This document shows, piece by piece, positions 25,300 through 37,760 of a stretch of DNA of 64,000 nt (position 1 is the first letter of the stretch; each line of letters starts with the position of its first letter). The stretch lies in NCBI GenBank assembly GCA_900313615.1, contig OMRP01000001.1, positions 186,001 to 250,000 of the forward strand, read 5' to 3'. The translations under genes were made by a program, and so were the position numbers. Below the pieces are notes generated by a model. That model was not told the origin of the DNA and searched no databases. It worked only from the letters and a program-made list of their open reading frames with translations. The stretch is from an uncultured Prevotellaceae bacterium (GTDB lineage: Bacteria; Bacteroidota; Bacteroidia; Bacteroidales; Bacteroidaceae).

Positions 25300-28017
25300 A
25301 TGCGAAGAGTTGGTATAATAATCGTTGGCCTTTTTTGGTGCTTTTTAGGATTGGCGCAAGAAGTCAGTGTAAGCGAAGCCTACCAAAAGGCTCAGGCGTT
25401 TATGAGTGAGAAAGGCAAACAAGTAGTGTCGATGCCCCGCAAGGCTCCTGGCACCCATGGTAAGGAGACCGCTACTTTCTATGTGTTCAATGCCACGGAC
25501 AATGAGGGATTCGTGCTAGTGTCTGGCGACAGCCGCTTGGGTGATATCCTCGGCTATTGCGACCAAGGCACTTATGACGAGGAGCGGATGCCTGACAATA
25601 TGCGTGCGTGGTTGGTGGGATACACCGACCAAGTAAAGGCATTGCGCCAAGGTAAGGCGGAGGCTGCTAGGAAGGTGCAGGCGCATGCCGCCATCCGACC
25701 GTGGTTGACCTCGAAATGGGACCAAGGTGTGGCAGATGCCAATGGCGATGCTTACAACCGTCAGTGCCCGAAGGTATGGGGGGCGCACTGCGTCACGGGA
25801 TGTGTGGCTACAGCCATGGCGCAGGTGATGCGCTTTCACAAGTGGCCTGTGGCTTCCACAGCGATGATACCTTCGTACCAATCAAACGGGACAGTGGGCA
25901 CTCTCAGTGCTTTGCAACCCAGACAATTTGATTGGGATAACATGCTCGACCAATATCAGGGTGATGAGAGCACCACATTGATGGATGCCGTGGCATGGCT
26001 GATGCGTTATTGCGGACAATCCGTGGAGATGGATTATGGCACCGATGCTTCGGGTGCATACAGTGAAGATGTAGCGAAGGCCCTGCGCACATTTTTTGAC
26101 TATGACACGAATACACGACATGTGTTGAGGTCGGATTATATGGCTGAAGGCTGGGATGATCTGATTTACAGTGAGTTGCGTTCTCGTCGTCCAGTGTTTT
26201 ATTCCGGAGCGTCGACAGGTGGCGGTCATGCCTTCGTATGTGATGGTTGTGACAATCAAGGATTTTTCCATATCAACTGGGGATGGAATGGTTATTATGA
26301 CGGCTATTATAAGTTGAGCCTCCTCAACCCCAGTGGCGGCGGCACGGGCGGTGGCGGTACGGAAGACGGCTACACGATGGACCAAGGCGCCGTTGTGGGA
26401 ATTCAGAAACCCACAGGTAACACTGACGATGGACGCATTCTCAATCTTTACGATTTAACCTATAGCGGTTCCACTATCGAAGCTACCTATTGGAACAGGA
26501 CGGGCATGTCCGGTACGTTCCAGTATGGGTTAGCCTATCAAGTGGTTGGTGGCGATACGTATAACTTTGCTTATCAAACGGCAACTCTCGATCCTCTGGA
26601 CCTGCCTTCTTACACCCTGAATGTGAACACTTTGAATCTGGCCAACGGCACTTATCGTTTCTATCCTTATAGTTGTATAGATGGTGAAAGTTGGTCTCAC
26701 CTTCAGGGCGATGGCGGCAGATACATCGAGGTGGTGATGCAAAATGGTCAGGCCAAGTCGATGACCGCTCATCCCCAAGCCGATTTGCAAGTGGTGAGCG
26801 TTGATTGCGTTGGAAACAAGATTGTGGGGAGTCCGCAAGAGGTTAAAATCAAGGTGAAGAACGATGGCGAAGAGTTTAATGACGTGTACTACCTCTTTGC
26901 TTCGCGAAACAACAGGAAAGGTCAGCCTGTGAGCGAAACGTGCATGGTGATTGAGGCAGGAGTCACTGAAGAGACAAGCCTCTATTTCACACCGACATCC
27001 ACTGGTACATGGAATCTATGGATAAGTACCAACGAGTCGGGTACCAACGCTTCGGGTCCTTATACGGTGGATATTGCCAGTGCACCCTCTGGTTCCAGCA
27101 ATCTCGCTTTGACCAATTACACCGTCGAAACAACTGAGGGCGTGGATATACATGTCACCGTGAAAAACAACGCTTCACAGGGATATTATCAATCTGTGGC
27201 ATGCGCCATCTTTTCAGAAGAGAGTAGTTCAAGTATCAAACTTTATGAATCGGGCAACCTCAATCTGGCAGCTGGTGAGACGGCGAATCTGACGTACCAT
27301 TTCGAGGGCCTGACCCCCGGCAAGCAGTATTACGCTAAGTTGGCTCGATACCCACAATATAGCTCGTCTAGTTTGACGCTCTTTGGTGAATCCATATATT
27401 TTGAGCCTCAAGAGATGATTCCCAACGATGTCACACTTACCATCAGTAGCGCTGGTGTGGGCACCTTTGCCAGTCCCTATGACCTTGACTTCACGGATGT
27501 CACAGGCATGAAAGCGTATATTGCCAGCGGCTTCGACCCTTCAAAGGGAAAACTGGTGCTTACCCAAGTCGACGAAGTGCCGGCAGGAACGGGTCTCTAC
27601 GTCAAGGGTACGGCGGGTACATACTACATCCCCGTAAAGGAGACGATGATGTTCTTTTCAAACCTGCTTGTGGGTGTGACGGAACCCACCCAGGTGTCTC
27701 CCACGGAGGGTAATATGACTAACTTCATCCTGGCCAATGGTGTACACGGTTTAGGATTCTACACACTTTCGAAGACAGGCCCCATCGCTGCCGGCAAGGC
27801 ATACCTGTCGCTGCCCACGAGGTCGGTGCCTGCTGCTGCAAATTACGTCGCTCTAGAGTTCGAAGATGAGGAGACGACGGGGATAGGTGAAGAGGTGATA
27901 GTGAATAGTGAAGAATCTGCTGACGAATGGTACACACTCGATGGAAGGAAACTCGACAAGAAACCGACGCAGAAAGGTGTGTATATCATGAATGGGAAAA
28001 AGCAAGTTGTTAAATAA
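25300..28017 (+). CDS. C10 family (streptopain-like) cysteine protease
   Basis: A 905-residue secreted protein with a signal peptide (MRRVGIIIVGLFWCFLGLAQ), a pro-domain (about 21-130), and a catalytic domain with Cys168 in VTGCVATAMAQVM and His310 in GGGHAFVCDGC followed by HINWGWNG. Immunoglobulin-like or other beta domains fill about 380-860. The C-terminus WYTLDGRKLDKKPTQKGVYI followed by MNGKKQVVK matches the terminal motif of the other C10 protein and the BspA-like protein. It is clearly paralogous to the 20426-23461 gene but transcribed separately in the other direction. Probably exported to the surface or medium for proteolysis. Confidence 0.9.
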   Translation: MRRVGIIIVGLFWCFLGLAQEVSVSEAYQKAQAFMSEKGKQVVSMPRKAPGTHGKETATFYVFNATDNEGFVLVSGDSRLGDILGYCDQGTYDEERMPDNMRAWLVGYTDQVKALRQGKAEAARKVQAHAAIRPWLTSKWDQGVADANGDAYNRQCPKVWGAHCVTGCVATAMAQVMRFHKWPVASTAMIPSYQSNGTVGTLSALQPRQFDWDNMLDQYQGDESTTLMDAVAWLMRYCGQSVEMDYGTDASGAYSEDVAKALRTFFDYDTNTRHVLRSDYMAEGWDDLIYSELRSRRPVFYSGASTGGGHAFVCDGCDNQGFFHINWGWNGYYDGYYKLSLLNPSGGGTGGGGTEDGYTMDQGAVVGIQKPTGNTDDGRILNLYDLTYSGSTIEATYWNRTGMSGTFQYGLAYQVVGGDTYNFAYQTATLDPLDLPSYTLNVNTLNLANGTYRFYPYSCIDGESWSHLQGDGGRYIEVVMQNGQAKSMTAHPQADLQVVSVDCVGNKIVGSPQEVKIKVKNDGEEFNDVYYLFASRNNRKGQPVSETCMVIEAGVTEETSLYFTPTSTGTWNLWISTNESGTNASGPYTVDIASAPSGSSNLALTNYTVETTEGVDIHVTVKNNASQGYYQSVACAIFSEESSSSIKLYESGNLNLAAGETANLTYHFEGLTPGKQYYAKLARYPQYSSSSLTLFGESIYFEPQEMIPNDVTLTISSAGVGTFASPYDLDFTDVTGMKAYIASGFDPSKGKLVLTQVDEVPAGTGLYVKGTAGTYYIPVKETMMFFSNLLVGVTEPTQVSPTEGNMTNFILANGVHGLGFYTLSKTGPIAAGKAYLSLPTRSVPAAANYVALEFEDEETTGIGEEVIVNSEESADEWYTLDGRKLDKKPTQKGVYIMNGKKQVVK

Positions 28018-28353: not shown

Positions 28354-30786
28354 TCACGCATACGAGTGCATTCCGCCCAGGAGGTAGTTCACACCGAAAT
28401 AGGTCATCAGAATGCTCAGGAAGGCCAGCACCATGTAGATATGGTAAGCCATCGGACGGCGGAAGGCGGGCAATGAGCGTTCATGCAACGCCACGGCATA
28501 TAGCATGAAGGTGATGAGCGCCCATGTCTCTTTCGGGTCCCAACTCCAATACTGTCCCCAACTGACATTCGCCCAGATGGCACCAATGAAGATGCCCAAT
28601 CCTAGGGCGGTCATGGCGGGATGCAGGAACAGTTTGCTCAGTAGCGCCAGGGCGGCTATCTGCTCGTCGCGCTGTTTCTCGTTTTTGTTCAGCAGTCGTA
28701 GTGCCATGGCTGTCAGTCCGCAGATGAACGTCAGGGCCAATAGGGCATACGACATCATGATGATGCTCACGTGAATGCTCAGCAGTGGCGATTGCAATAC
28801 GGGCATGAGATGGCTGATTTGCGGGTCCATGTCACTGATATGCGCCACCAACAGGAAGAAACCTGCCAATAGAAAGCCAAAGGTGAGCACGATGCGGAAC
28901 CGACGATAGGCCATCATGGAAGCTAAGAGGATAAGCCATGACATCAACAGCATTGTCTCATAGCCGTTGCCCATGGGCACGGTGCCACGGATGATCCAAC
29001 GTAAGACAAGGCAGAGTGTCAGAGCTAGAAAACATACCACCATCACCCCCAGACTGACGGCCAAAAACAGCCGCTCCGCTCCTCGCCTCTTGTCGGTATC
29101 CTCTTGCTCCTTGCCCCTTGCCCCTTTCCCCTCAAAAAGCCTCTTGTCGGTATCCTCTTGCTCCTTGCTCCTTGCCCCTTGCCCCTCAAAAAGCCTCTTG
29201 TTGGTATCCTCTTGCCCCTTGCTCCTTGCTCCTTGCCCCTCAAAAAGCCTCTTGTTGGTATCCTCTTGCCCCTTGCTCCTTGCCCCTTGCCCCTTACTCT
29301 TCACCAGCCTTCGCATGAAATAGCCCAAAGTCAGAAAACCCATTGTTAGGCAAACCATGAAAAGGATGGTGGCAAAAGGTATGCTGTTGTAAAGTCGCTC
29401 CGCGCGGATACAGGTGTCACTGGGAATGCTTGTGCCACCACTCATGCGCTGGTATTCGCCCATCTTGTCGAAATACGCTCCTATTCGACTCTCATTGCCG
29501 TCAAGCACATCTTGGTACAGCCGTGAGAACACCTCGGTGATGTATTTCTTGTGTTCGCTCTCCACGGTATCGGGGATGCTATCAGTGGGCGCATACCAGT
29601 GGGTGCCGTGTGAGTCGGTGTATGGAAAGAGTTTCAGCAACAACCCTTGGCGCAACTCCATGATGAGCATTAGTTTGTCGTCCAACTGGCGGGCTTGCTT
29701 GTGTAGGGCATCCTCAACGCCGTGTTGCGACTCGCTCACCAAAGGACCGAGTTTATAACCTTGTATGGGGTCGAACAGACTATTCAGGCTGATGGGACTG
29801 TCCGTGCTCAATTTGGCCAGCAATTCGCTGCCTTTCACCTTCAGCATCGGCTCTTGGTTCCACTTGTCACCGTAGAAAAGCCATCCGCTTAATACTTGCT
29901 CGGCGCTCAATCCTTTGTAACTCTTCTTGCCACAAAGTTTCTTCGTGAAATCGATGGCAAAAGTCTGCAGCGGACAGATGCGGTCGTTGTAATTCACCAA
30001 CAGATGCCCCATCTTGTCGGCCAACTCACGGCTGAGGGTAGGGGGCGTGTCTTTCGCCTCGCCAAAAACGCTGTTGAAAGGAAGTATTGCCATCAGCAGA
30101 ATAAAAGTGCCTTTCTTGAGCAATGGGTCGTGTAAAAGACGGCGAAAGGCTCCCTTGGGGTCAATCAACATAAACAACAACGAGAAGAACAACATGGCGT
30201 AGCCCAGATAGGTGAGTGGTATGCCCCATGGGTCGCTGTTTACGGTGAGCACACTGCCACGGCCGTCCATGTCGTAAGAATTCTGGTATAGTCGTACACC
30301 GCTATGTGAGAGGATGCTGTTCATGGAGATGGTGTGATGCTCTTCTTGATGGCCGTCTTTCACGGTCACCCTCGACACATAGTCCATCGCACTGGCTGTG
30401 CCTTCGTGGTAACAAACCTCAAAAGAGTCTAACCGAAGGGTAAAGGGCAATGGTCGCAGTTTCATTTCCGTGTCGGCGTATTGCGAAGTCTCCTCGCCTT
30501 GGCGCAGATGAAGCATGCCCCGACGGGCGGTGAGATGGGTGAGTAGGGCGCCCACAAGTATGACGATGAAAGAAGCATGGAGAAGCAACAATGCCCATCG
30601 GCACATACGCTGGCGGATAATCCACGCCACACCAAAGGCGGTGAGCAAGGCCCATAGCAAGATGAACCACCATGAACCGTAGATGTGGGTACCCACAAAA
30701 GTGGTGCCTTTGTATTGCTCCACGATGGTGGCGGCAGCCATCACCACTAGCAACAGGATATAAATGCTCCCCAATGCTTTCTTCAT
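28354..30786 (-). CDS. CcsBA-type cytochrome c synthase (ResB-CcsA fusion) with an in-frame repeat insert
   Basis: An 810-residue inner-membrane protein for System II cytochrome c maturation: it exports haem and joins it to CxxCH motifs. The N-terminal ResB-like part has TM helices near 5-25, 35-55, 60-85 and 210-235 and a periplasmic domain. The CcsA part (about 570-810) has the haem-handling WWD motif WGQYWSWDPKETWAL near residue 745. Between the halves, about residues 496-566, four copies of an 18-residue unit (GQGARSKGQEDTNKRLFE and variants, 54 bp each) form a charged linker that looks like repeat expansion. It lies downstream of the di-haem oxidoreductase gene on the same strand and would supply its haem attachment. 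Confidence 0.87.
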   Translation of the reverse strand: MKKALGSIYILLLVVMAAATIVEQYKGTTFVGTHIYGSWWFILLWALLTAFGVAWIIRQRMCRWALLLLHASFIVILVGALLTHLTARRGMLHLRQGEETSQYADTEMKLRPLPFTLRLDSFEVCYHEGTASAMDYVSRVTVKDGHQEEHHTISMNSILSHSGVRLYQNSYDMDGRGSVLTVNSDPWGIPLTYLGYAMLFFSLLFMLIDPKGAFRRLLHDPLLKKGTFILLMAILPFNSVFGEAKDTPPTLSRELADKMGHLLVNYNDRICPLQTFAIDFTKKLCGKKSYKGLSAEQVLSGWLFYGDKWNQEPMLKVKGSELLAKLSTDSPISLNSLFDPIQGYKLGPLVSESQHGVEDALHKQARQLDDKLMLIMELRQGLLLKLFPYTDSHGTHWYAPTDSIPDTVESEHKKYITEVFSRLYQDVLDGNESRIGAYFDKMGEYQRMSGGTSIPSDTCIRAERLYNSIPFATILFMVCLTMGFLTLGYFMRRLVKSKGQGARSKGQEDTNKRLFEGQGARSKGQEDTNKRLFEGQGARSKEQEDTDKRLFEGKGARGKEQEDTDKRRGAERLFLAVSLGVMVVCFLALTLCLVLRWIIRGTVPMGNGYETMLLMSWLILLASMMAYRRFRIVLTFGFLLAGFFLLVAHISDMDPQISHLMPVLQSPLLSIHVSIIMMSYALLALTFICGLTAMALRLLNKNEKQRDEQIAALALLSKLFLHPAMTALGLGIFIGAIWANVSWGQYWSWDPKETWALITFMLYAVALHERSLPAFRRPMAYHIYMVLAFLSILMTYFGVNYLLGGMHSYA
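29076..29300. repeat. 54-bp tandem repeat inside the CcsBA gene
   Basis: About four tandem copies, all in frame (54 is a multiple of 3), made of the low-complexity words CTTGCCCCTTGCTCCTTG plus CCTCTTG(T/T)GGTATCCT. A related CTTGCTCCTTGCCCCTTG tract lies at 31020-31058 outside the gene, so the repeat family is not specific to this protein. Confidence 0.85.
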
Positions 30787-30835
30787 GTCATCAATAATAA
30801 CGTAAAAGGCAAAATTTTAGTATATTAAAAGTTCA

Positions 30836-31062
30836 AACCCTCCCCATCCCTCCCAAGAAGGAAATACCCACCCCATCCCTCCCAAAGGGAGGGTGCTCAA
30901 AGTAGAGCATCCTCCCTTCACCGTTTGGTCTCCCCTCCATTGCTCCCTCTTCTTTGCCCCTCTATGCAATTTTTTTGCTTCTTGCCCCTCTTCTTTGCTC
31001 TCTCTTCTTTGCCCCTCCAGACATTTCTCTTGCTCCTTGCCCCTTGCTCCTTACCCCTTATG
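30836..31062. repeat. Intergenic repeat tract between CcsBA and di-haem oxidoreductase genes
   Basis: The gap of 276 bp holds GC-hairpin repeat copies (30840-30930) followed by T/C-rich words of the CTTGCCCCTTGCTCC type up to the end of the upstream gene. I see no promoter or ORF with support in it. Confidence 0.65.
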
Positions 31063-32778
31063 TTATATCGCCCTCAAGAACTTCACCACGGCGTCGCGGT
31101 CGGCCTTGGGCAGGTAGAAGAACCGTTCTGTGCTGGCATAGGCATCACTCTTCTTGCTATAGGCATGCCACATGATGGCTTCTATCTCGTTGCGGGCACG
31201 ACAGTCATGCAGACGGTCGTCAGCACCAGTGTTCACCATCGACAAGCCACGGCCCCAAAGTGGCGTAGTGCGGCACCAACTGCCATGGATGCCGTTCTTC
31301 ATATAAAGGCGGTGTTGCAACATGTCAGTGTAAGGATAGATCACTTGCTTGGGATAGGTGGGCAGCGACAGGTTGTTCGAGGTGACCAAAGCGGGTGCCC
31401 AATAGTCATCGTTGCCTGTGGTCCATTTCGGGCGGTGGCACGAGGCGCAGCCAATCTGCATAAACACCTCCTTGCCGCGCTGTACCTCGGCGTCGTTCAG
31501 GTCGCGGGCACGGGGCACGGCCAATCCGCGATGCCACACCATATACTGCCAAAAATTCATGTCGGTCATCTCGGGCTTGAAGTTGTGGTAGGGATTGTCG
31601 AATTGGTTGGTCTTCGGCGACAGCAGTGCTCTTACCGCTTCGGCGATACCAGCATCGGTGCCGTCATAGTAATAGGGCGACGAGGGGTCGGCCTTGATGG
31701 CGGCTATCACGTCGGGGTTCTCCGACATCGCCTGTGCCCATGCCTCGGTGGTGTAGAGGTAAGGACGGTCGCTGCGGCTCACGTTGGGGATGTTCCACAT
31801 GGCGTTGGCGCCGGCACCATCTTGCAATGAGGCACGTGTCATGGCGTAGGTGAAACGCTTGATTTTCTTCGTACCGTCGGCCAAGGTGTACCATGCTCCA
31901 GGAGCCCAGTCATTGGCACTCTTGTCCCAGAAATTGGGGTTCAGCTCCACATAGGGAGCCTCGGCCATGTATTGTTTCTTCAGAGAGTCTTCGGGGATGG
32001 CGTCCAGCAGTCCGGTGCCATAGAGACCGATGGTCGACTCCAGACGGAAGGCGAGATTCGAAGGTTTCGGATTGGTGTTGAAGGCGGCGATGTCAATCGA
32101 TAACTCGGGATAAATCAGTTCGTATTTCTCGCCATCGGGGAACTGCATGGGGAGTCCGCTCTCCATGGCGGTCACTGTCTCCCAACTCAGATGGATGCCA
32201 CCCTCGTCGATGGGGGGCAGGAACGGACTGATGGCTCGCGTCTGCGGCATGCCTGTCACCTCGCTGATATATGGGCCATCGTCGCTGTTGTCGCCGTCAA
32301 CGGGATGGTATACCACCAGCAGGTAGCCATTGCCACGGAAGTCGGCATCGTAACGGCTTACACGCTTGCCATGCCCATAGCCTGGATGGCAGTGGATGCA
32401 TGAGGTGCGCACATAGGCAGGACCCAGTCCGCCAAAGTCGGCGGTGCTGGTCTGAGTGAAGTCGTGCTCAAACAGCAGTTCGCCTTTCTTGAAGGCATTG
32501 AACAGGTCGGCACGGGTGATGGCTTCGGTCTCTACCTCGTAACTGTGGGCTGCGGTACTCTCCGTGGTGCCCAACTCACCACCGGGATACCACTCCTCGG
32601 CCTTGAATCCTTTGGTGGCTTTTCCCACATATTTGTAGTCGGCTTCGTCGGTGGTGCTGATCTCGCCGGTCTCGTGGCCGGGGGAGACATCATTGTCGTC
32701 TTTGTCATCGCAACCCGTTAAGGAAAATGCGCCTAAAAGACAGAGCGACAGCACTTTAGGGAATAAGTGTTTTTTCAT
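31063..32778 (-). CDS. Di-haem oxidoreductase (DHOR) lipoprotein
   Basis: A 571-residue exported protein with two c-type haem sites, CIHCH (about residue 127) and CASCH (about residue 450), as in the di-haem oxidoreductase/putative peroxidase family (PF06537). The signal peptide ends FSLTGC with lipid Cys23, followed by DDKDDND, an acidic stretch like the Bacteroidetes lipoprotein export signal, so a surface location is likely. Family members are often encoded next to imelysin-like proteins, as here, and are suspected of redox chemistry tied to iron handling. The downstream CcsBA gene provides haem attachment. No direct substrate evidence. Confidence 0.85.
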   Translation of the reverse strand: MKKHLFPKVLSLCLLGAFSLTGCDDKDDNDVSPGHETGEISTTDEADYKYVGKATKGFKAEEWYPGGELGTTESTAAHSYEVETEAITRADLFNAFKKGELLFEHDFTQTSTADFGGLGPAYVRTSCIHCHPGYGHGKRVSRYDADFRGNGYLLVVYHPVDGDNSDDGPYISEVTGMPQTRAISPFLPPIDEGGIHLSWETVTAMESGLPMQFPDGEKYELIYPELSIDIAAFNTNPKPSNLAFRLESTIGLYGTGLLDAIPEDSLKKQYMAEAPYVELNPNFWDKSANDWAPGAWYTLADGTKKIKRFTYAMTRASLQDGAGANAMWNIPNVSRSDRPYLYTTEAWAQAMSENPDVIAAIKADPSSPYYYDGTDAGIAEAVRALLSPKTNQFDNPYHNFKPEMTDMNFWQYMVWHRGLAVPRARDLNDAEVQRGKEVFMQIGCASCHRPKWTTGNDDYWAPALVTSNNLSLPTYPKQVIYPYTDMLQHRLYMKNGIHGSWCRTTPLWGRGLSMVNTGADDRLHDCRARNEIEAIMWHAYSKKSDAYASTERFFYLPKADRDAVVKFLRAI

Positions 32779-32817
32779 AATCGTTGTGGTTGTTGTGTCT
32801 TTGTTTTTTTACGGGTA

Positions 32818-32845
32818 AAGTTGTGCCATAGGAATGGCACAACTT
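32818..32845. promoter_or_regulatory. Perfect hairpin between the imelysin and di-haem oxidoreductase genes
   Basis: AAGTTGTGCCAT, loop AGGA, ATGGCACAACTT: a 12-bp perfect stem with no adjacent U-run on the minus strand. It may act as a partial terminator, an RNA stabiliser at the imelysin 3' end, or a protein site. Confidence 0.55.
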
Positions 32846-32878
32846 CACATAATTATTCAAGAGGGTAGGTTATAGCCG

Positions 32879-34219
32879 TCAGTCGGCTTTTAATATGGTG
32901 TTGATAGTGCTGTTGAGGGCGGCATCCAACTCACCGATGGCATCCATGGCGGTTCCCACATAGGAGGCTCCGGGATTCTCCACGAAGGCTTTGCCACTGT
33001 TCAGACAGGCGTCGAGCGAGGCCAGGGCGGCATTCAACTTGTTGAGAAGTGAGCTGGCCAGGCTGGGATAGTTGTCAGACAAGAAAGCCATGATGCTGTT
33101 CTTCGACCATGTGGACGCATTGGTGTTGGTATTGCCAAAGAGGGTGTATTTGATACTCAGGATGTTACCCTTGAAGTCGGTGAATGAGTTGTGGCTATAG
33201 GGCGACTCGATGTAGTTGGGGTCGTCCTCTTCCTGCTGACCATCTTCACCCTCATGGTATGTGGGCGACGAACTGGTGGCGGAACGGTAGGCCTGGCCCA
33301 TTTTTTGGTCGGCCACCTCGGCGCAGATATTCGAACAGCCTCCCACGAAAATCTCTTCCAGCACTTTCCACCAACTGCTGTATGAACTGCTGGAGGTGGT
33401 GCGGGCAAGGTTCTCTCCATAACTCAGACCGTTCTTGGCAACCGTGGTCTTGAACTCGTCGGCGTTCTCTTGCTTGCACTCTTCGATTCGTGCAATATGG
33501 GCTGTCTTGGCCTTGTTGCCTAACCATGACACCTCCAACTGGAAGCACTTGTCACGCAGGTCGCCAGCAACGGCGGTGGCGAAAATCACCTCTTCCAAAC
33601 CGGTAACGGCCAGTCCCTTGAAGTTCTCGTCGTCTTCGGTGGCGTCGTTGTTGAAAATGTCCACACTGCGGTTCTTGCCATTGCGGAAGAAGATGAACTC
33701 AATGCCGTGGAAACCGAGGTTCTCGGGCGTGAGGTTACCGGCTGTACGTGCCCAGGTGATGCCGTCAGCACCGTCGAGTCGGGCAATTTTATTGTTGTCC
33801 TTCAGGTCGCCTGCAAGCACGGGCAAGTCGAGGGGCCATGTGTCGATGTGCGGGTCGATGTCGAAGTCACTGGCAGCGCCGAAGAGGAAGGCTTCGCTTT
33901 TCTCCCATAGGTCACGGGCACTCTTGTAGTCGGCGCAGATGGCGTCAATATCCGACTGGCTGGCCTTGGTGCCGTCTTTCAGTTTCTTCTTCAGTGCGGC
34001 AATCTTGTTGTAAAGGTCGTCAGCCCTATCGGCCAGACCGCTATAGGTGGGGTATACCACATCGTCGAGATACGACTCTACGATGGTCTTCAGTTGGTCG
34101 GTGGTGTTGTTGCCGCCACCGCCACCATTATCGTCATCGTCATCACCACAAGAGGTAAAACCCATCGAAAGTGTAAATGCTGCCGCGAACAGCAGCGCAT
34201 ACTTGAAAATCTTTTTCAT
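32879..34219 (-). CDS. Imelysin-family (peptidase M75-like) lipoprotein
   Basis: A 446-residue exported protein. The signal peptide ends GFTSC, followed by GDDDDDNGGGGG, so it is a lipoprotein with an acidic export-signal-like stretch and probably faces outside. The imelysin GxHxxE motif is present as GFHGIE (His171, Glu174). The rest is helical, as in the two four-helix-bundle halves of imelysins. The family (ICMP, IrpA, EfeO-related) is linked to iron uptake; protease activity is doubtful. It lies between the porin-like gene and the di-haem oxidoreductase gene, all on the minus strand with short gaps. Confidence 0.88.
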   Translation of the reverse strand: MKKIFKYALLFAAAFTLSMGFTSCGDDDDDNGGGGGNNTTDQLKTIVESYLDDVVYPTYSGLADRADDLYNKIAALKKKLKDGTKASQSDIDAICADYKSARDLWEKSEAFLFGAASDFDIDPHIDTWPLDLPVLAGDLKDNNKIARLDGADGITWARTAGNLTPENLGFHGIEFIFFRNGKNRSVDIFNNDATEDDENFKGLAVTGLEEVIFATAVAGDLRDKCFQLEVSWLGNKAKTAHIARIEECKQENADEFKTTVAKNGLSYGENLARTTSSSSYSSWWKVLEEIFVGGCSNICAEVADQKMGQAYRSATSSSPTYHEGEDGQQEEDDPNYIESPYSHNSFTDFKGNILSIKYTLFGNTNTNASTWSKNSIMAFLSDNYPSLASSLLNKLNAALASLDACLNSGKAFVENPGASYVGTAMDAIGELDAALNSTINTILKAD

Positions 34220-34310
34220 TTCTCTCTGTTTTTGTTGCGTTAAATTATAATTGAATAGTCTATTAAGTTAAAAGTTAAGAGTTAAGATTTTATTCTTTCT
34301 TTTTCCTCAG

Positions 34311-34380
34311 GTTCCCCCCTCCTTGGGAGGGGGAAAGGGGGAGGTTCTCTCCCATCAGAGGGGGAAAGGGGGAGGCTCCT
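34311..34380. repeat. GC-hairpin repeat pair upstream of the imelysin gene
   Basis: Two adjacent units of the form (CCCCCTCCTTGGGAGGGGG)AAAGGGGGAGG separated by TTCTCTCCCATCAG. They sit in the 168-bp gap after the porin-like gene and could form a strong hairpin in the operon mRNA. Confidence 0.75.
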
Positions 34381-34387
34381 AAAAGCC

Positions 34388-35698
34388 TTACCTAAAGAAC
34401 CCTTCATAGGCAATACCTATATTTAGTGAGGGCTCGTTGTTGTATTGGTCCTTGAAAATGCGGTTCGAATATTCGGCTTTGATGGCTATCTGTGGGATAG
34501 GGTAGTAGTTCACACCGAATGAAAGGCGTTGACGCGATGTGTAGTCATAAGAGGGCTGCGAACTCTCCTTGATGTAACTGTCGTAATATTCATAGCGGCC
34601 GAAGACATACAATTTTTGGTTGTCGGCGTGTAACTTGGCAACCTGTGAAAACACGTCGTAGCCCGCTTCCACACCGATGGCCGTTGCCGCCTTGCCTACG
34701 GGGGTAGTGTTGTAAGGTGAGTTTTTCGGTTGGCGACTCTTGGCGCTGCTCACGTCGGCGGCATCACTCAATGTGCCGTAGTCGGCCTGGCCACGCACAA
34801 TCCAGTTGTAACGATTGAAAGTGAAGTCGAACGAACCTATCCACACATTACCCGCCACCTTGTCGTAGGTTTTCCCTTCGCCCTCCATGTCATTGGGTGA
34901 CGTGTTGTGCATGGCCCTGCCATAATACGAACTCATGGCCATACGCAAACCGGGAATGGTGTAGTTGTCCACACGAGCGGAGAAACCGTATTTATTGGCG
35001 GGCTTAAACTCGAAAGCGCTCTTGACACCATTCTTCACCCAGTTGTCACGGCTGAACATTAGGGCGTTCAGACCGGCTGTCACCTGCAATTCGTAACGCC
35101 AATCACCATAACGGCCCCAAAAACTCACACCTGTGTCATGCCACGTGCTGGGAAGGATGGTGTTCTCGCCCTCAGGGCGGTAGACGGTGAAGAAATTCAA
35201 AGGCTCATGGTGGGCGTTGTTCAGACCCACGGGCACGATGATATGTCCCATGCGGAGGTTGGCCCATGAGGCGAACGACTTCTGTATCCATAGTTGCTCC
35301 AGTTCCACCTCGCCGCCTTTTTCCACCTCGTGTTCGTATTCCCCTCCTTCGTCGGTCTCCAACTCGATAGCGCTACCTGTGCCGGTGTGTTCAAACTCTA
35401 TCTCAGTGCCGAAGGTCCAACCCTTGCCGAAATCATAACCTAAGTATATCACGGCATGGGGAATGTCGAAACGGCCATTGCTGGGGTCGTTCTTATACTT
35501 GCTGGGATTGCTGTAACGATAGATGTTGTCGCTATAGAAATGACGACTGTATGCTACCTCACCATAGGCACCTACGCTCAAACGGTTTCCTTTGGCATGT
35601 GTCATCACGCTATCGCCAGCTGAAGTCTGCGCATTGGTCGAAACGGCGGCACTCAGCATGACGGTCGCCGCCAACAACATTTTTTGAATCTTTCTCAT
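34388..35698 (-). CDS. Porin-like outer-membrane beta-barrel protein
   Basis: A 436-residue protein. ATG 35698 (MRKIQKMLLAATVMLSAAVS, then TNAQ) gives a signal peptide; the ATG at 35758 adds a charged 20-residue extension and is unlikely. The mature protein has alternating aromatic/hydrophobic strands and ends GIAYEGFFR with a terminal aromatic region, as in outer-membrane barrels. It resembles the phosphate-selective porin O/P-like barrels of Bacteroidetes. It is the first gene of the set porin, imelysin, di-haem oxidoreductase, CcsBA, so it may pass a substrate related to that system. Its leader is about 290 nt, long and low in complexity. Confidence 0.8.
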   Translation of the reverse strand: MRKIQKMLLAATVMLSAAVSTNAQTSAGDSVMTHAKGNRLSVGAYGEVAYSRHFYSDNIYRYSNPSKYKNDPSNGRFDIPHAVIYLGYDFGKGWTFGTEIEFEHTGTGSAIELETDEGGEYEHEVEKGGEVELEQLWIQKSFASWANLRMGHIIVPVGLNNAHHEPLNFFTVYRPEGENTILPSTWHDTGVSFWGRYGDWRYELQVTAGLNALMFSRDNWVKNGVKSAFEFKPANKYGFSARVDNYTIPGLRMAMSSYYGRAMHNTSPNDMEGEGKTYDKVAGNVWIGSFDFTFNRYNWIVRGQADYGTLSDAADVSSAKSRQPKNSPYNTTPVGKAATAIGVEAGYDVFSQVAKLHADNQKLYVFGRYEYYDSYIKESSQPSYDYTSRQRLSFGVNYYPIPQIAIKAEYSNRIFKDQYNNEPSLNIGIAYEGFFR

Positions 35699-35990
35699 AT
35701 CTAATTTTTCACTTTTCACTATTAACTTTTCAATATTTCCTTTTCCCTTTTCCCTCAATTTTTCCCTTTTCTCTATTTCCTTTTCCCCTCATTCATTTGT
35801 CTTCACTCCTTCACTCCTCTCACTCCTTCACTCTTTTAAAAAAAGAAAGTTCTTCACTCCTCTCACTCCTCTCACTCCTTCAAAAGAAAGCAGTTTTTTG
35901 GTTGCTATCTGTCCACGAACCATATGTTGTATTGAATTGGTAGTGCAAGGGAAAGTGGTACGGAGTGGTAACCATCACTGCTTTCTTGCA
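35699..35990. other. Long low-complexity leader of the porin-imelysin operon
   Basis: The minus-strand transcript from the promoter at 35993-36023 would run about 290 nt before the porin ATG. It contains CACTCCTTCACTCCT-type repeats (35800-35882), a short A/T inverted repeat near 35836-35862, and CTTTTCCC words. No ORF with support. Confidence 0.5.
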
Positions 35991-35992
35991 TG

Positions 35993-36023
35993 CAAAAGTA
36001 CTTGCATTGTGTTACTCGCGCAA
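35993..36023 (-). promoter_or_regulatory. Bacteroidetes-type promoter of the porin-imelysin-DHOR operon
   Basis: Minus strand TTG (36021-36023), a 20-bp spacer and TACTTTTG (35993-36000). It is divergent from the regulator promoter; the two -33 boxes are only about 53 bp apart, leaving space for a shared operator. Confidence 0.65.
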
Positions 36024-36076
36024 TACTCAAAATTTGGTAAAATAGTCGCTGCTAAATAAATACCTAAAAATGGTGA

Positions 36077-36106
36077 TTGTTCATTTCCAGAAATTTCGTA
36101 ACTTTG
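36077..36106 (+). promoter_or_regulatory. Bacteroidetes-type promoter of the LuxR regulator pair
   Basis: TTG (36077-36079), a 19-bp spacer and TAACTTTG (36099-36106). The following leader (36121-36183) is an AACTCATAAACTC low-complexity tract up to the ATG. Confidence 0.65.
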
Positions 36107-36183
36107 CAGAAGATTAATTCATAATTCACAAAACTCATAAACTCCCAAACTTATCAACTCATAAACTCATCAACTCATAAAAA

Positions 36184-37140
36184 ATGAAATACCAGAAAAT
36201 GTATGAGGCCGATGATAAGATGATTTCCCTTATCAAAGACAATTACAGCCTATTGCAAAGTTTAGGCAGTTTCGGCATCAATCTCGGTTTCGGCGACAAA
36301 ACCGTGCGTGAGGTGTGTGAGGCGCAAAATGTGGATACATATACATTTCTTGCTGTTGTCAACTTCACCATAAATGGGTATCGTGATTTCGATGAGATTG
36401 ATAAACTGTCGGTACCTACATTGCTGCAGTACCTCAAAGCAAGCCATGACTATTTCTTGGGATTTCAACTGCCTTTCATCAGAAAAGAACTATCCGATGC
36501 ACTCGACGAGAATGACAACCTCGCCCGTCTCATCTTGCGTCTTTACGACGAATATGCGCACTCCATCCGTACGCACATGAAATACGAGGAACGAACGGTG
36601 TTCCCTTATGTTGAGTCGCTATTGAACAAAACGCCCATGACGAATTATAATATCGAGACGTTCTCGAAACACCATGGACAGACCGACCAGAAATTGCGCG
36701 AACTGAAAAGCATCATCATTAAATACCTGCCTAGTGATGAACTGCACAACAACCAACTATCCGCCACTCTTTACGACATCTTCAACAACGAGGAATGGCT
36801 GCGCCTGCATGCTGATGTGGAAGACCATATCTTCATCCCCGCCATTCGATGGATAGAACGACAGACACGCCAAAACGATGTGTCGATGAAAATTTCAAGA
36901 ATGATCGGTCAGAATGGCGACAAGGGCGAGGTGCTCAGCGAGAGAGAGAAAGACGTGGTGGTGTCGGTGGTTCAAGGCATGACCAACAAGGAGATAGCCG
37001 ACCATCTGTGCATTGCCATCAACACGGTCATCACACACCGACGCAACATTGCCAAGAAATTGCAGATTCATAGTGCGGCGGGCCTGACCATCTACGCCAT
37101 CGTCAATAATCTTATCGACATATCCACTGTTAAATTATGA
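36184..37140 (+). CDS. Hemerythrin/YtfE-like di-iron domain fused to a LuxR-type DNA-binding domain
   Basis: A 318-residue predicted regulator. The N-terminus (about 5-60) resembles the ScdA/YtfE N-terminal domain but has no CC pair. The middle (about 75-225) has the six di-iron ligands expected of the YtfE/hemerythrin type: His in ASHDYF, His and Glu in THMKYEE, His in KHHG, His and Glu in LHADVEDHIFIP. The C-terminus (about 250-318) is a LuxR helix-turn-helix with LSEREKDVVVSVVQGMTNKE and TVITHRRNIAKKLQ. It should sense iron, oxygen or nitric oxide and control transcription. It overlaps the next gene by four bases (ATGA) and is divergent from the iron-related operon. Confidence 0.85.
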   Translation: MKYQKMYEADDKMISLIKDNYSLLQSLGSFGINLGFGDKTVREVCEAQNVDTYTFLAVVNFTINGYRDFDEIDKLSVPTLLQYLKASHDYFLGFQLPFIRKELSDALDENDNLARLILRLYDEYAHSIRTHMKYEERTVFPYVESLLNKTPMTNYNIETFSKHHGQTDQKLRELKSIIIKYLPSDELHNNQLSATLYDIFNNEEWLRLHADVEDHIFIPAIRWIERQTRQNDVSMKISRMIGQNGDKGEVLSEREKDVVVSVVQGMTNKEIADHLCIAINTVITHRRNIAKKLQIHSAAGLTIYAIVNNLIDISTVKL

Positions 37141-37760
37141 CCGATAACCATAACAATGCTCCAATGCATCACATACCCAAAATAGCAGTCATCATGGCTA
37201 ACACCTTGGCTGTTATAGGCATCAAGCAACTGCTGGGAGCGGTGCTCAAGGGGCTGCAGATAGATACGTTCAATAACTTCAACGATTTCAAGGAGGAGAA
37301 TCATGACAGTTATGTCCATTTTTTTGTCGACTTCTCCATCGTACTCGAAAACATGACGTTCTTCTACCAACAAAAGAAGAAAACCATCGTGCTCACCCCA
37401 TCCGATGATGCTGACAAACAACTTGTGGGATTCCATTCCCTTTGTATCAATGTGCCGGAGGATAAATTGGTGAAATCTCTCCTCATGCTTGGGCAACAGG
37501 GACATCCGCATGGTCATATGCCCGTGAAAAACGAGGAAGGGGCAGACAATCAGGCAAGGCTCTCCGACCGTGAGGTGGAGGTGTTGGCGCTCGTGGCGCA
37601 GGGATATATCAATAAAGAGATAGCCGATAGACTAAACATAGCCTTGTCAACTGTTATTTCACACCGAAAAAACATCACCGAAAAACTGGGCATAAAATCC
37701 GTCTCAGCCCTCACTGTCTATGCGGTCATGAATGGGTATGTGGATATAAATAAGATTTAA
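37137..37760 (+). CDS. LuxR-type regulator with a degenerate receiver-like domain
   Basis: A 207-residue predicted transcription factor. The C-terminal LuxR domain (about 140-207) has LSDREVEVLALVAQGYINKE and TVISHRKNITEKLGIKS. The N-terminal part (about 15-120) is receiver-like in size and beta-alpha pattern but lacks the phospho-acceptor Asp and acidic pocket that I would expect, so it probably does not accept phosphate. Its start ATG overlaps the stop of the hemerythrin-LuxR gene, giving translational coupling. The two HTH domains are clearly related, so they may form a heterodimer or act in series. Confidence 0.82.
   Translation: MTDNHNNAPMHHIPKIAVIMANTLAVIGIKQLLGAVLKGLQIDTFNNFNDFKEENHDSYVHFFVDFSIVLENMTFFYQQKKKTIVLTPSDDADKQLVGFHSLCINVPEDKLVKSLLMLGQQGHPHGHMPVKNEEGADNQARLSDREVEVLALVAQGYINKEIADRLNIALSTVISHRKNITEKLGIKSVSALTVYAVMNGYVDINKI

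Follow-up and report, generated by a model that had tools for sequence, protein, structure and literature searches.

A hemerythrin-LuxR regulator, its predicted iron site and a putative operator shared with a divergent imelysin operon in a Prevotellaceae genome

An operon encoding a hemerythrin-domain protein and the LuxR-type regulator CdhR is on record for Porphyromonas gingivalis (PG1236-1237) and Bacteroides thetaiotaomicron (BT_0519-0520), with the two fused in Prevotella intermedia, and according to the accessible part of the source it rises in low iron, 6.9-7.3-fold in P. gingivalis and 16-20-fold in B. thetaiotaomicron (PMC10434189). The same part lists a B. thetaiotaomicron locus, BT_2473-2482, with genes for CcsA, a porin, a thiol oxidoreductase of the di-haem oxidoreductase (DHOR) type, a peptidase M75 (imelysin) and a helix-turn-helix protein, which goes up 63-324-fold when iron is low and is elevated in colitis as well. 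CdhR (PG1237) is reported as an hmu activator in the available text of PMC10101095, which cites other work for it, and imelysins are described, in the portion of PMC3143127 at hand, as almost always accompanied by EfeB/DUF1111-type peroxidases. Here we analyze a window of 64,000 nucleotides (the whole stretch of DNA under study), positions 186,001 to 250,000 of contig OMRP01000001.1, from an uncultured Prevotellaceae bacterium whose assembly (GCA_900313615.1; 2.77 Mb, 33 contigs) is about 82% complete. In this window, the gene for a hemerythrin-LuxR fusion protein, HHE-LuxR, and a CdhR-like gene directly after it, CdhR2, are divergent from genes for a porin, an imelysin, a DHOR and CcsBA.

As in PG1236/CdhR and BT_0519-0520, a hemerythrin-domain protein here adjoins a LuxR-type regulator, and low-iron induction is a feature of the homologues. 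In contrast to these pairs, the hemerythrin protein of the window has its own GerE domain, is followed by a second, CdhR-like gene and faces an imelysin operon. The CcsA, porin, DHOR-type and imelysin genes stand together as in BT_2473-2482, a locus that, judging by its number, lies apart from BT_0519-0520; compared with it, the window operon lacks a fimbrillin gene, its CcsBA is fused, and its DHOR is of the divergent form and goes with an imelysin of canonical order. Joint encoding of an imelysin (GxHxxE) and a di-haem DHOR (two CxxCH) is also the mark of the imelysin-DUF1111/EfeUOB-type loci, predicted envelope iron systems as far as the portion of PMC3143127 at hand goes, but the window operon includes a porin and CcsBA; an EfeU/Ftr1 permease is absent from the four operon genes, to which the search for it was confined. 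An earlier, sequence-only reading of this DNA had called the system little-described, which is too strong given that the hemerythrin/CdhR pair and the porin-DHOR-imelysin-CcsA locus are both in print (accessible text of PMC10434189). Both halves are partly known already, and what is new is the operator that they share; we found no CdhR operator in the literature searched, in which subscription journals were largely uncovered. From the genome comparisons below, we propose that a hemerythrin sensor of the di-iron kind, with ScdA/YtfE as relatives, probably controls an iron-starvation regulon of Bacteroidales, with the window operon as its main target here.

The putative operator, with consensus TACCTA-N4-TAGGTA, is found at both promoters of the divergent intergenic region and abuts the -33 box each time:

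36184-37140, plus strand: HHE-LuxR, 318 aa, with a RIC-like N-terminal region, a hemerythrin domain (PF01814, E=4e-14) and a GerE domain (PF00196, E=6e-16)
37137-37760, plus strand: CdhR2, a CdhR-like LuxR protein with a receiver-like N-terminal domain and a GerE domain (E=4e-18)
36061-36076, plus strand: putative operator 1, TACCTAAAAATGGTGA, abutting the -33 box of the HHE-LuxR promoter
36024-36039, minus strand: putative operator 2, TACCAAATTTTGAGTA, abutting the -33 box of the porin/imelysin operon promoter
36077-36106, plus strand: HHE-LuxR promoter, with TTG as -33 box (36077-36079), N19 and TAACTTTG as -7 box (36099-36106), a layout kept in relatives
35993-36023, minus strand: operon promoter, with TTG as -33 box (36021-36023), N20 and TACTTTTG as -7 box (35993-36000), 294 bp from the porin start

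The outward-facing promoters with about 53 bp between their -33 boxes, as described by the sequence-only reading, are indeed there, exactly 53 bp separating the two TTGs, and the operators together span exactly 36024-36076, the stretch it had proposed for footprinting. Anchoring on TTG-N19..21-TAnnTTTG in 79 further loci and the window retained 34 HHE promoters, and the block abutting TTG in these starts with T in 97%, A in 94% and C in 88% at its first three positions. The operator is a perfect palindrome in one locus (L231) and degenerate in a few (e.g. L215), with TACCCA and TACTCA variants in other genera. At least two sites of at least 9 bits occur in all 37 divergent intergenic regions shorter than 700 bp (the window and 36 Prevotella-group loci), both abutting a full promoter in 16. 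A DtxR-type box was considered for the motif and dropped, its half-sites being in the opposite order. In 13 of the 37 regions, not all independent (L200, L208, L209, L211, L237, L238, L242, L244, L249, L260, L263, L272 and L273), the HHE-side operator is followed 53-55 bp downstream by a third operator-like site, which the window lacks; such a site could curb synthesis of the regulator itself.

How specific the motif is was gauged with a scoring matrix built from 32 HHE promoters, at thresholds of at least 14 and at least 10 bits. At the stricter one, a site is found in 70 of 78 Prevotella-group HHE upstreams vs. 4 of 776 control upstreams (one upstream shorter than 60 bases and L233, without an HHE open reading frame (ORF), were dropped). 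In a set of 121 genomes of the family, sites of at least 14 bits occur at 48/99 HHE, 9/22 FeoAB, 17/34 regulator-locus porin, 24/38 non-adjacent porin and 40/1166 other upstreams, and those of at least 10 bits at 69, 14, 27, 33 and 83, respectively. The Prevotella porin score, 39/40, is not independent, the matrix having been trained on HHE promoters with which divergent porin upstreams overlap; cleaner tests are the site pairs in divergent intergenic regions and the porins that do not adjoin the regulator. For the latter, the 24/38 compares with a mean of 0.27 and a maximum of 2/38 for 60 column-shuffled matrices, and in 22/38 a site of at least 10 bits abuts a -33/-7 promoter. This set comprises 38 of 49 loci, 11 having no usable porin upstream, and includes some on short contigs that may be true neighbors as well as one at 14 kb (G017); nonetheless, nine of ten loci picked by eye for large contigs or wide separation on one contig reach 14 bits (the ten being G008, G013, G015, G036, G055, G056, G062, G080, G097 and G112). 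Within the window's own 2.77-Mb assembly, a loose 19-bp pattern has two matches, both in the HHE-LuxR/porin intergenic region (control pattern, one). The specificity of the operator pattern is owed to the -7 box, since the 19-mer alone gives 38 matches across the genus vs. 21 for the control; the loose 16-mer alone is unspecific, with five matches in the window, two of them within genes of the locus, where 0.67 are expected.

The regulator is found in 107 of the 121 family genomes, DHOR in 81 and both in 80, and in 32 of the latter they lie within 12 kb of each other, divergently in 27. The divergent cases comprise 17 of the 28 genomes whose DHOR is full-length, its neighbor usually being an imelysin that is matched as two swapped parts, and 10 of the 52 that combine a divergent-form DHOR with a canonical imelysin. 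Among Prevotella-group loci with an HHE ORF (79 of 80 fetched), 35 have an imelysin within three genes upstream. The sequence-only reading had taken a pair mostly without the operon as a sign against control, and literally this is what is seen, with DHOR within 12 kb in only 32 of the 107 genomes; control stays supported by operators in trans, which account for non-adjacency without refuting it. We therefore set aside adjacency alone as the tie between regulator and operon, weak as it is with 75 of 107 genomes lacking it, and used the trans operator instead. FeoAB, near the regulator in 22 of 111 loci, points to iron; flavodoxin/DUF2023 is there in a few.

A composite pattern of operator plus promoter was used with N20 spacing, which leaves the N19 HHE promoter of the window uncounted. 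It has 107 matches in 55/121 family genomes (control, 0) and 32 matches in 23/149 genomes of the order (control, 1). Thirty family loci, each from a different genome, were examined for the gene after the operator, which is the porin of an imelysin operon in seven, FeoAB in six, HHE in one and CcsBA in one; others encode TetR, TonB receptors, PepSY_TM or a CCG-domain protein, several called by reading alone, and some, such as an alpha/beta hydrolase and a CysK-like protein, are not iron-like. FeoAB is the commonest next gene in the 29 order loci examined (10), followed by the porin (5, the window among them) and HHE (2). Ten genes after matches in the genus, chosen for a -7 box after the site and a readable gene (L309 has no clear one), encode TonB receptors or plug domains in eight cases and, in the other two, a TetR and a calycin-like protein; when nine were scanned against NCBIfam, six matched siderophore or haem receptor models, all under cut-off. 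The composite site also goes with the regulator, occurring in 54/107 family genomes with it vs. 1/14 without (p=0.0016), in 41/78 vs. 1/8 of those at least 90% complete (p=0.034) and in 21/98 vs. 2/51 in the order (p=0.003), kinship being ignored in all three. In other families of the order, operator-bearing promoters are followed by DUF2249 (L355), by ferredoxin-DUF1858-DUF2249 (L362) and by a similar-looking protein, called by reading (L371). DUF2249 is a domain known from nitric oxide (NO) regulons.

As for the protein itself, the sequence-only reading was right that a hemerythrin domain with six iron ligands is fused to a LuxR domain and that the gene overlaps a second LuxR-type gene, by 4 bp. 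The GerE domains score 58.3 bits in HHE-LuxR and 65.4 bits in CdhR2 against a Pfam cut-off of 23.5. All six ligands are present (H88, H131, E135, H164, H209 and E213), five of them in 99/99 homologues and H164 in 93/99, this survey having dropped 12 of 111 regulator loci for want of an HHE-family ORF. The closest named relative found, from a Prevotella sp. metagenome-assembled genome of buffalo abomasum, is 92% identical across the hemerythrin region. Searched against the PDB, a profile built from 35 hemerythrin regions matches ScdA at its positions 8-223 (E=5e-6) and YtfE at positions 112-221 (E=8e-5). HHE-LuxR is like RIC proteins (ScdA/YtfE) in its hemerythrin region, which aligns entirely with ScdA, and in its six ligands. 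It differs in lacking the N-terminal Cys pair of RIC, aligned to G35-F36, and in its additional GerE domain; C45, a bit further on, is kept in 98/99 homologues. It scores 49.7 bits against the NCBIfam RIC equivalog TIGR03652 (cut-off 204.7). It is not classed as RIC, and we regard it as a predicted di-iron sensor, a regulator rather than a repair protein. Two copies of the hemerythrin regulator are present in each of four genomes (G025, G051, G072 and G101).

The GerE domain has a recognition helix, TVx(T/S)HR(R/K)NI with mostly I as third residue, that is common to 142 fused, 41 CdhR and 37 CdhR2 proteins with few exceptions. The DNA-binding domain of HHE-LuxR is on average 63% (at most 76%) identical to that of CdhR and 50% to that of CdhR2. 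The fused form is not simply two genes run together, because it lacks the receiver-like domain that CdhR has, and a related one is kept in CdhR2 (aligned over their N-terminal domains, the CdhR2 and CdhR families give an hhalign probability of 82.6 at 14% identity). The NarL heptamer is TACYYMT in the available text of PMC4886647, which the consensus half-site fits, operator 2 having TACCAA on one side. HHE-LuxR resembles NarL-type regulators in its GerE domain and TACYYMT-like inverted half-sites, but a hemerythrin domain replaces the phosphorylated receiver. In many Prevotella loci, nrdD-nrdG-like genes, called by reading, lie between HHE-LuxR and CdhR2 (L199, L204, L226, L230, L240 and others).

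The idea that the pair controls the operon is well supported: the same operator is at both promoters and at non-adjacent imelysin operons, and the arrangement recurs. On the signal, left by the sequence-only reading as iron, oxygen or NO, iron is favored because operator-bearing promoters precede FeoAB, TonB siderophore or haem receptors and PepSY_TM, and because the homologues are induced by low iron (accessible text of PMC10434189); there is little for NO, for which only DUF2249 proteins of unknown role in a few loci could be cited, and a nitrosative role was ranked below iron, while oxygen is a less likely candidate than iron. We infer that the hemerythrin domain binds iron and reports iron state, so that at low iron, its di-iron site empty or altered, GerE would bind the TACCTA-N4-TAGGTA dyads beside the -33 box and activate transcription; the position of these dyads against that box, their recurrence and their sites in trans are seen directly in the genomes compared. 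In its own assembly, the two strict sites, at the regulator promoter and the divergent operon, would make a single, autoregulated switch whose one main target is that operon, and the surface imelysin and di-haem lipoprotein, whose haems CcsBA could attach, would serve iron or haem acquisition, as their families suggest. In split systems, CdhR would be the target of a free-standing hemerythrin (HHE) protein, a link that the Prevotella fusion supports. FBXL5 is a hemerythrin-based iron sensor. More tentatively, a hemerythrin sensor acting through a NarL-like operator might serve as master activator in iron starvation throughout the order, over FeoAB, imelysin operons and TonB receptors, separate from Fur and a bacterial counterpart of FBXL5, a possibility that we put forward with less than even confidence.

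Several observations weigh against control of an iron regulon by HHE-LuxR. The recognition helix is common to both GerE proteins, so either may bind the operator. Outside Prevotella, only the 48/99 HHE upstreams mentioned above reach 14 bits (69 at 10 bits); four genomes (G056, G092, G110 and G120) have a site at the imelysin promoter and none at the HHE promoter; and the FeoAB upstream stays below 10 bits in five of six genomes with co-directional FeoAB-HHE-CdhR (G020, G046, G067, G085, G101 and G116). The composite site is present in three regulator-negative genomes, before FeoAB in G104, before a porin in G241 and before no clear gene in G205. Finally, FeoAB promoters give a mixed result, sites of at least 8 bits being found in 10/20 with the regulator vs. 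1/15 without (p=0.007) and those of at least 10 bits in 7/20 vs. 1/15 (p=0.055; Mann-Whitney p=0.14); the former are 20 of 28 genomes with FeoAB, L418 and L419, without a start, being kept at the default position, and the latter 15 of 18 loci, three having no start found and G039 being counted twice.

The pair might control the operon yet respond to oxygen or NO through YtfE-like chemistry, the iron genes answering to redox-damaged iron proteins. Kinship with ScdA/YtfE, the nrdD-nrdG-like genes that some 20 Prevotella loci have close to HHE-LuxR and the DUF2249 proteins encoded behind the operators of L355 and L362 would fit, as would the statement, in the available text of PMC10101095, that cdhR is down in microaerophilic P. 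gingivalis. We nevertheless consider it unlikely, since many of the downstream genes examined are for iron acquisition, the homologues respond to low iron, and no NO or oxygen detoxification gene was recognized among the operator-bearing loci examined (several called by reading, with no dedicated search run). Alternatively, the operator may belong to another iron regulator, Fur-like or an unrelated LuxR, with the hemerythrin-LuxR gene merely one of its targets; the motif before many iron genes, the three regulator-negative genomes, the four genomes with a site at imelysin only and the FeoAB test would all suit this. That, too, is improbable, a little more so, in view of the NarL/LuxR form of the dyad, its presence in 70/78 Prevotella HHE promoters, its absence from most regulator-negative genomes and a recognition helix conserved family-wide. 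A neighborhood due to chance or simple inheritance, with no regulatory tie, is scarcely credible: although 75/107 genomes have no DHOR within 12 kb of the regulator, many contigs being short, the two genes are close in 32/80 genomes with both, 27 times divergently and with two operon types, and the operators are shared in trans too, the non-adjacent porin test contradicting this reading unless the motif is unrelated to the regulator.

For iron sensing in abundant gut and oral bacteria, and for a locus with reported elevation in colitis, the analysis gives a predicted di-iron sensor together with an exact putative operator, its promoter placement and a target list, which opens the question to direct and simple binding and deletion tests.

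The divergent operon comprises four genes:

34388-35698, minus strand: beta-barrel protein of the outer membrane ("porin"), from a family of 73 ORFs, which opens the likely operon
32879-34219, minus strand: imelysin (M75, canonical order; PF09375, 2e-30), with GFHGIE
31063-32778, minus strand: DHOR di-haem oxidoreductase, divergent form (PF06537, 3e-29), with two CxxCH (CIHCH and CASCH)
28354-30786, minus strand: CcsBA, a fused cytochrome c synthetase (ResB and CcsA) with WGQYWSWD, the CcsB model matching under its own cut-off

All four genes are there and divergent as the sequence-only reading had it; with gaps of 168, 100 and 276 bp they are likely one operon, and "porin" is a label that comes from a weak match to the Pfam outer-membrane barrel (E=0.006, under cut-off) and from the naming of the B. 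thetaiotaomicron neighbors. A porin TTG start at 35758 was discarded as too long, relatives starting near MRKIQK. Lipoboxes in imelysin (FTSC) and DHOR (LTGC), each followed by an acidic stretch, make the surface lipoprotein label given to these two a fair prediction. In CcsBA, a GQGARSKGQEDTNKRLFE-like repeat recurs in frame about four times within the linker that joins ResB and CcsA (residues about 496-570). Beyond CcsBA, a C10 peptidase of the streptopain type that also carries a Spi inhibitor domain is encoded at 25300-28017 on the plus strand.

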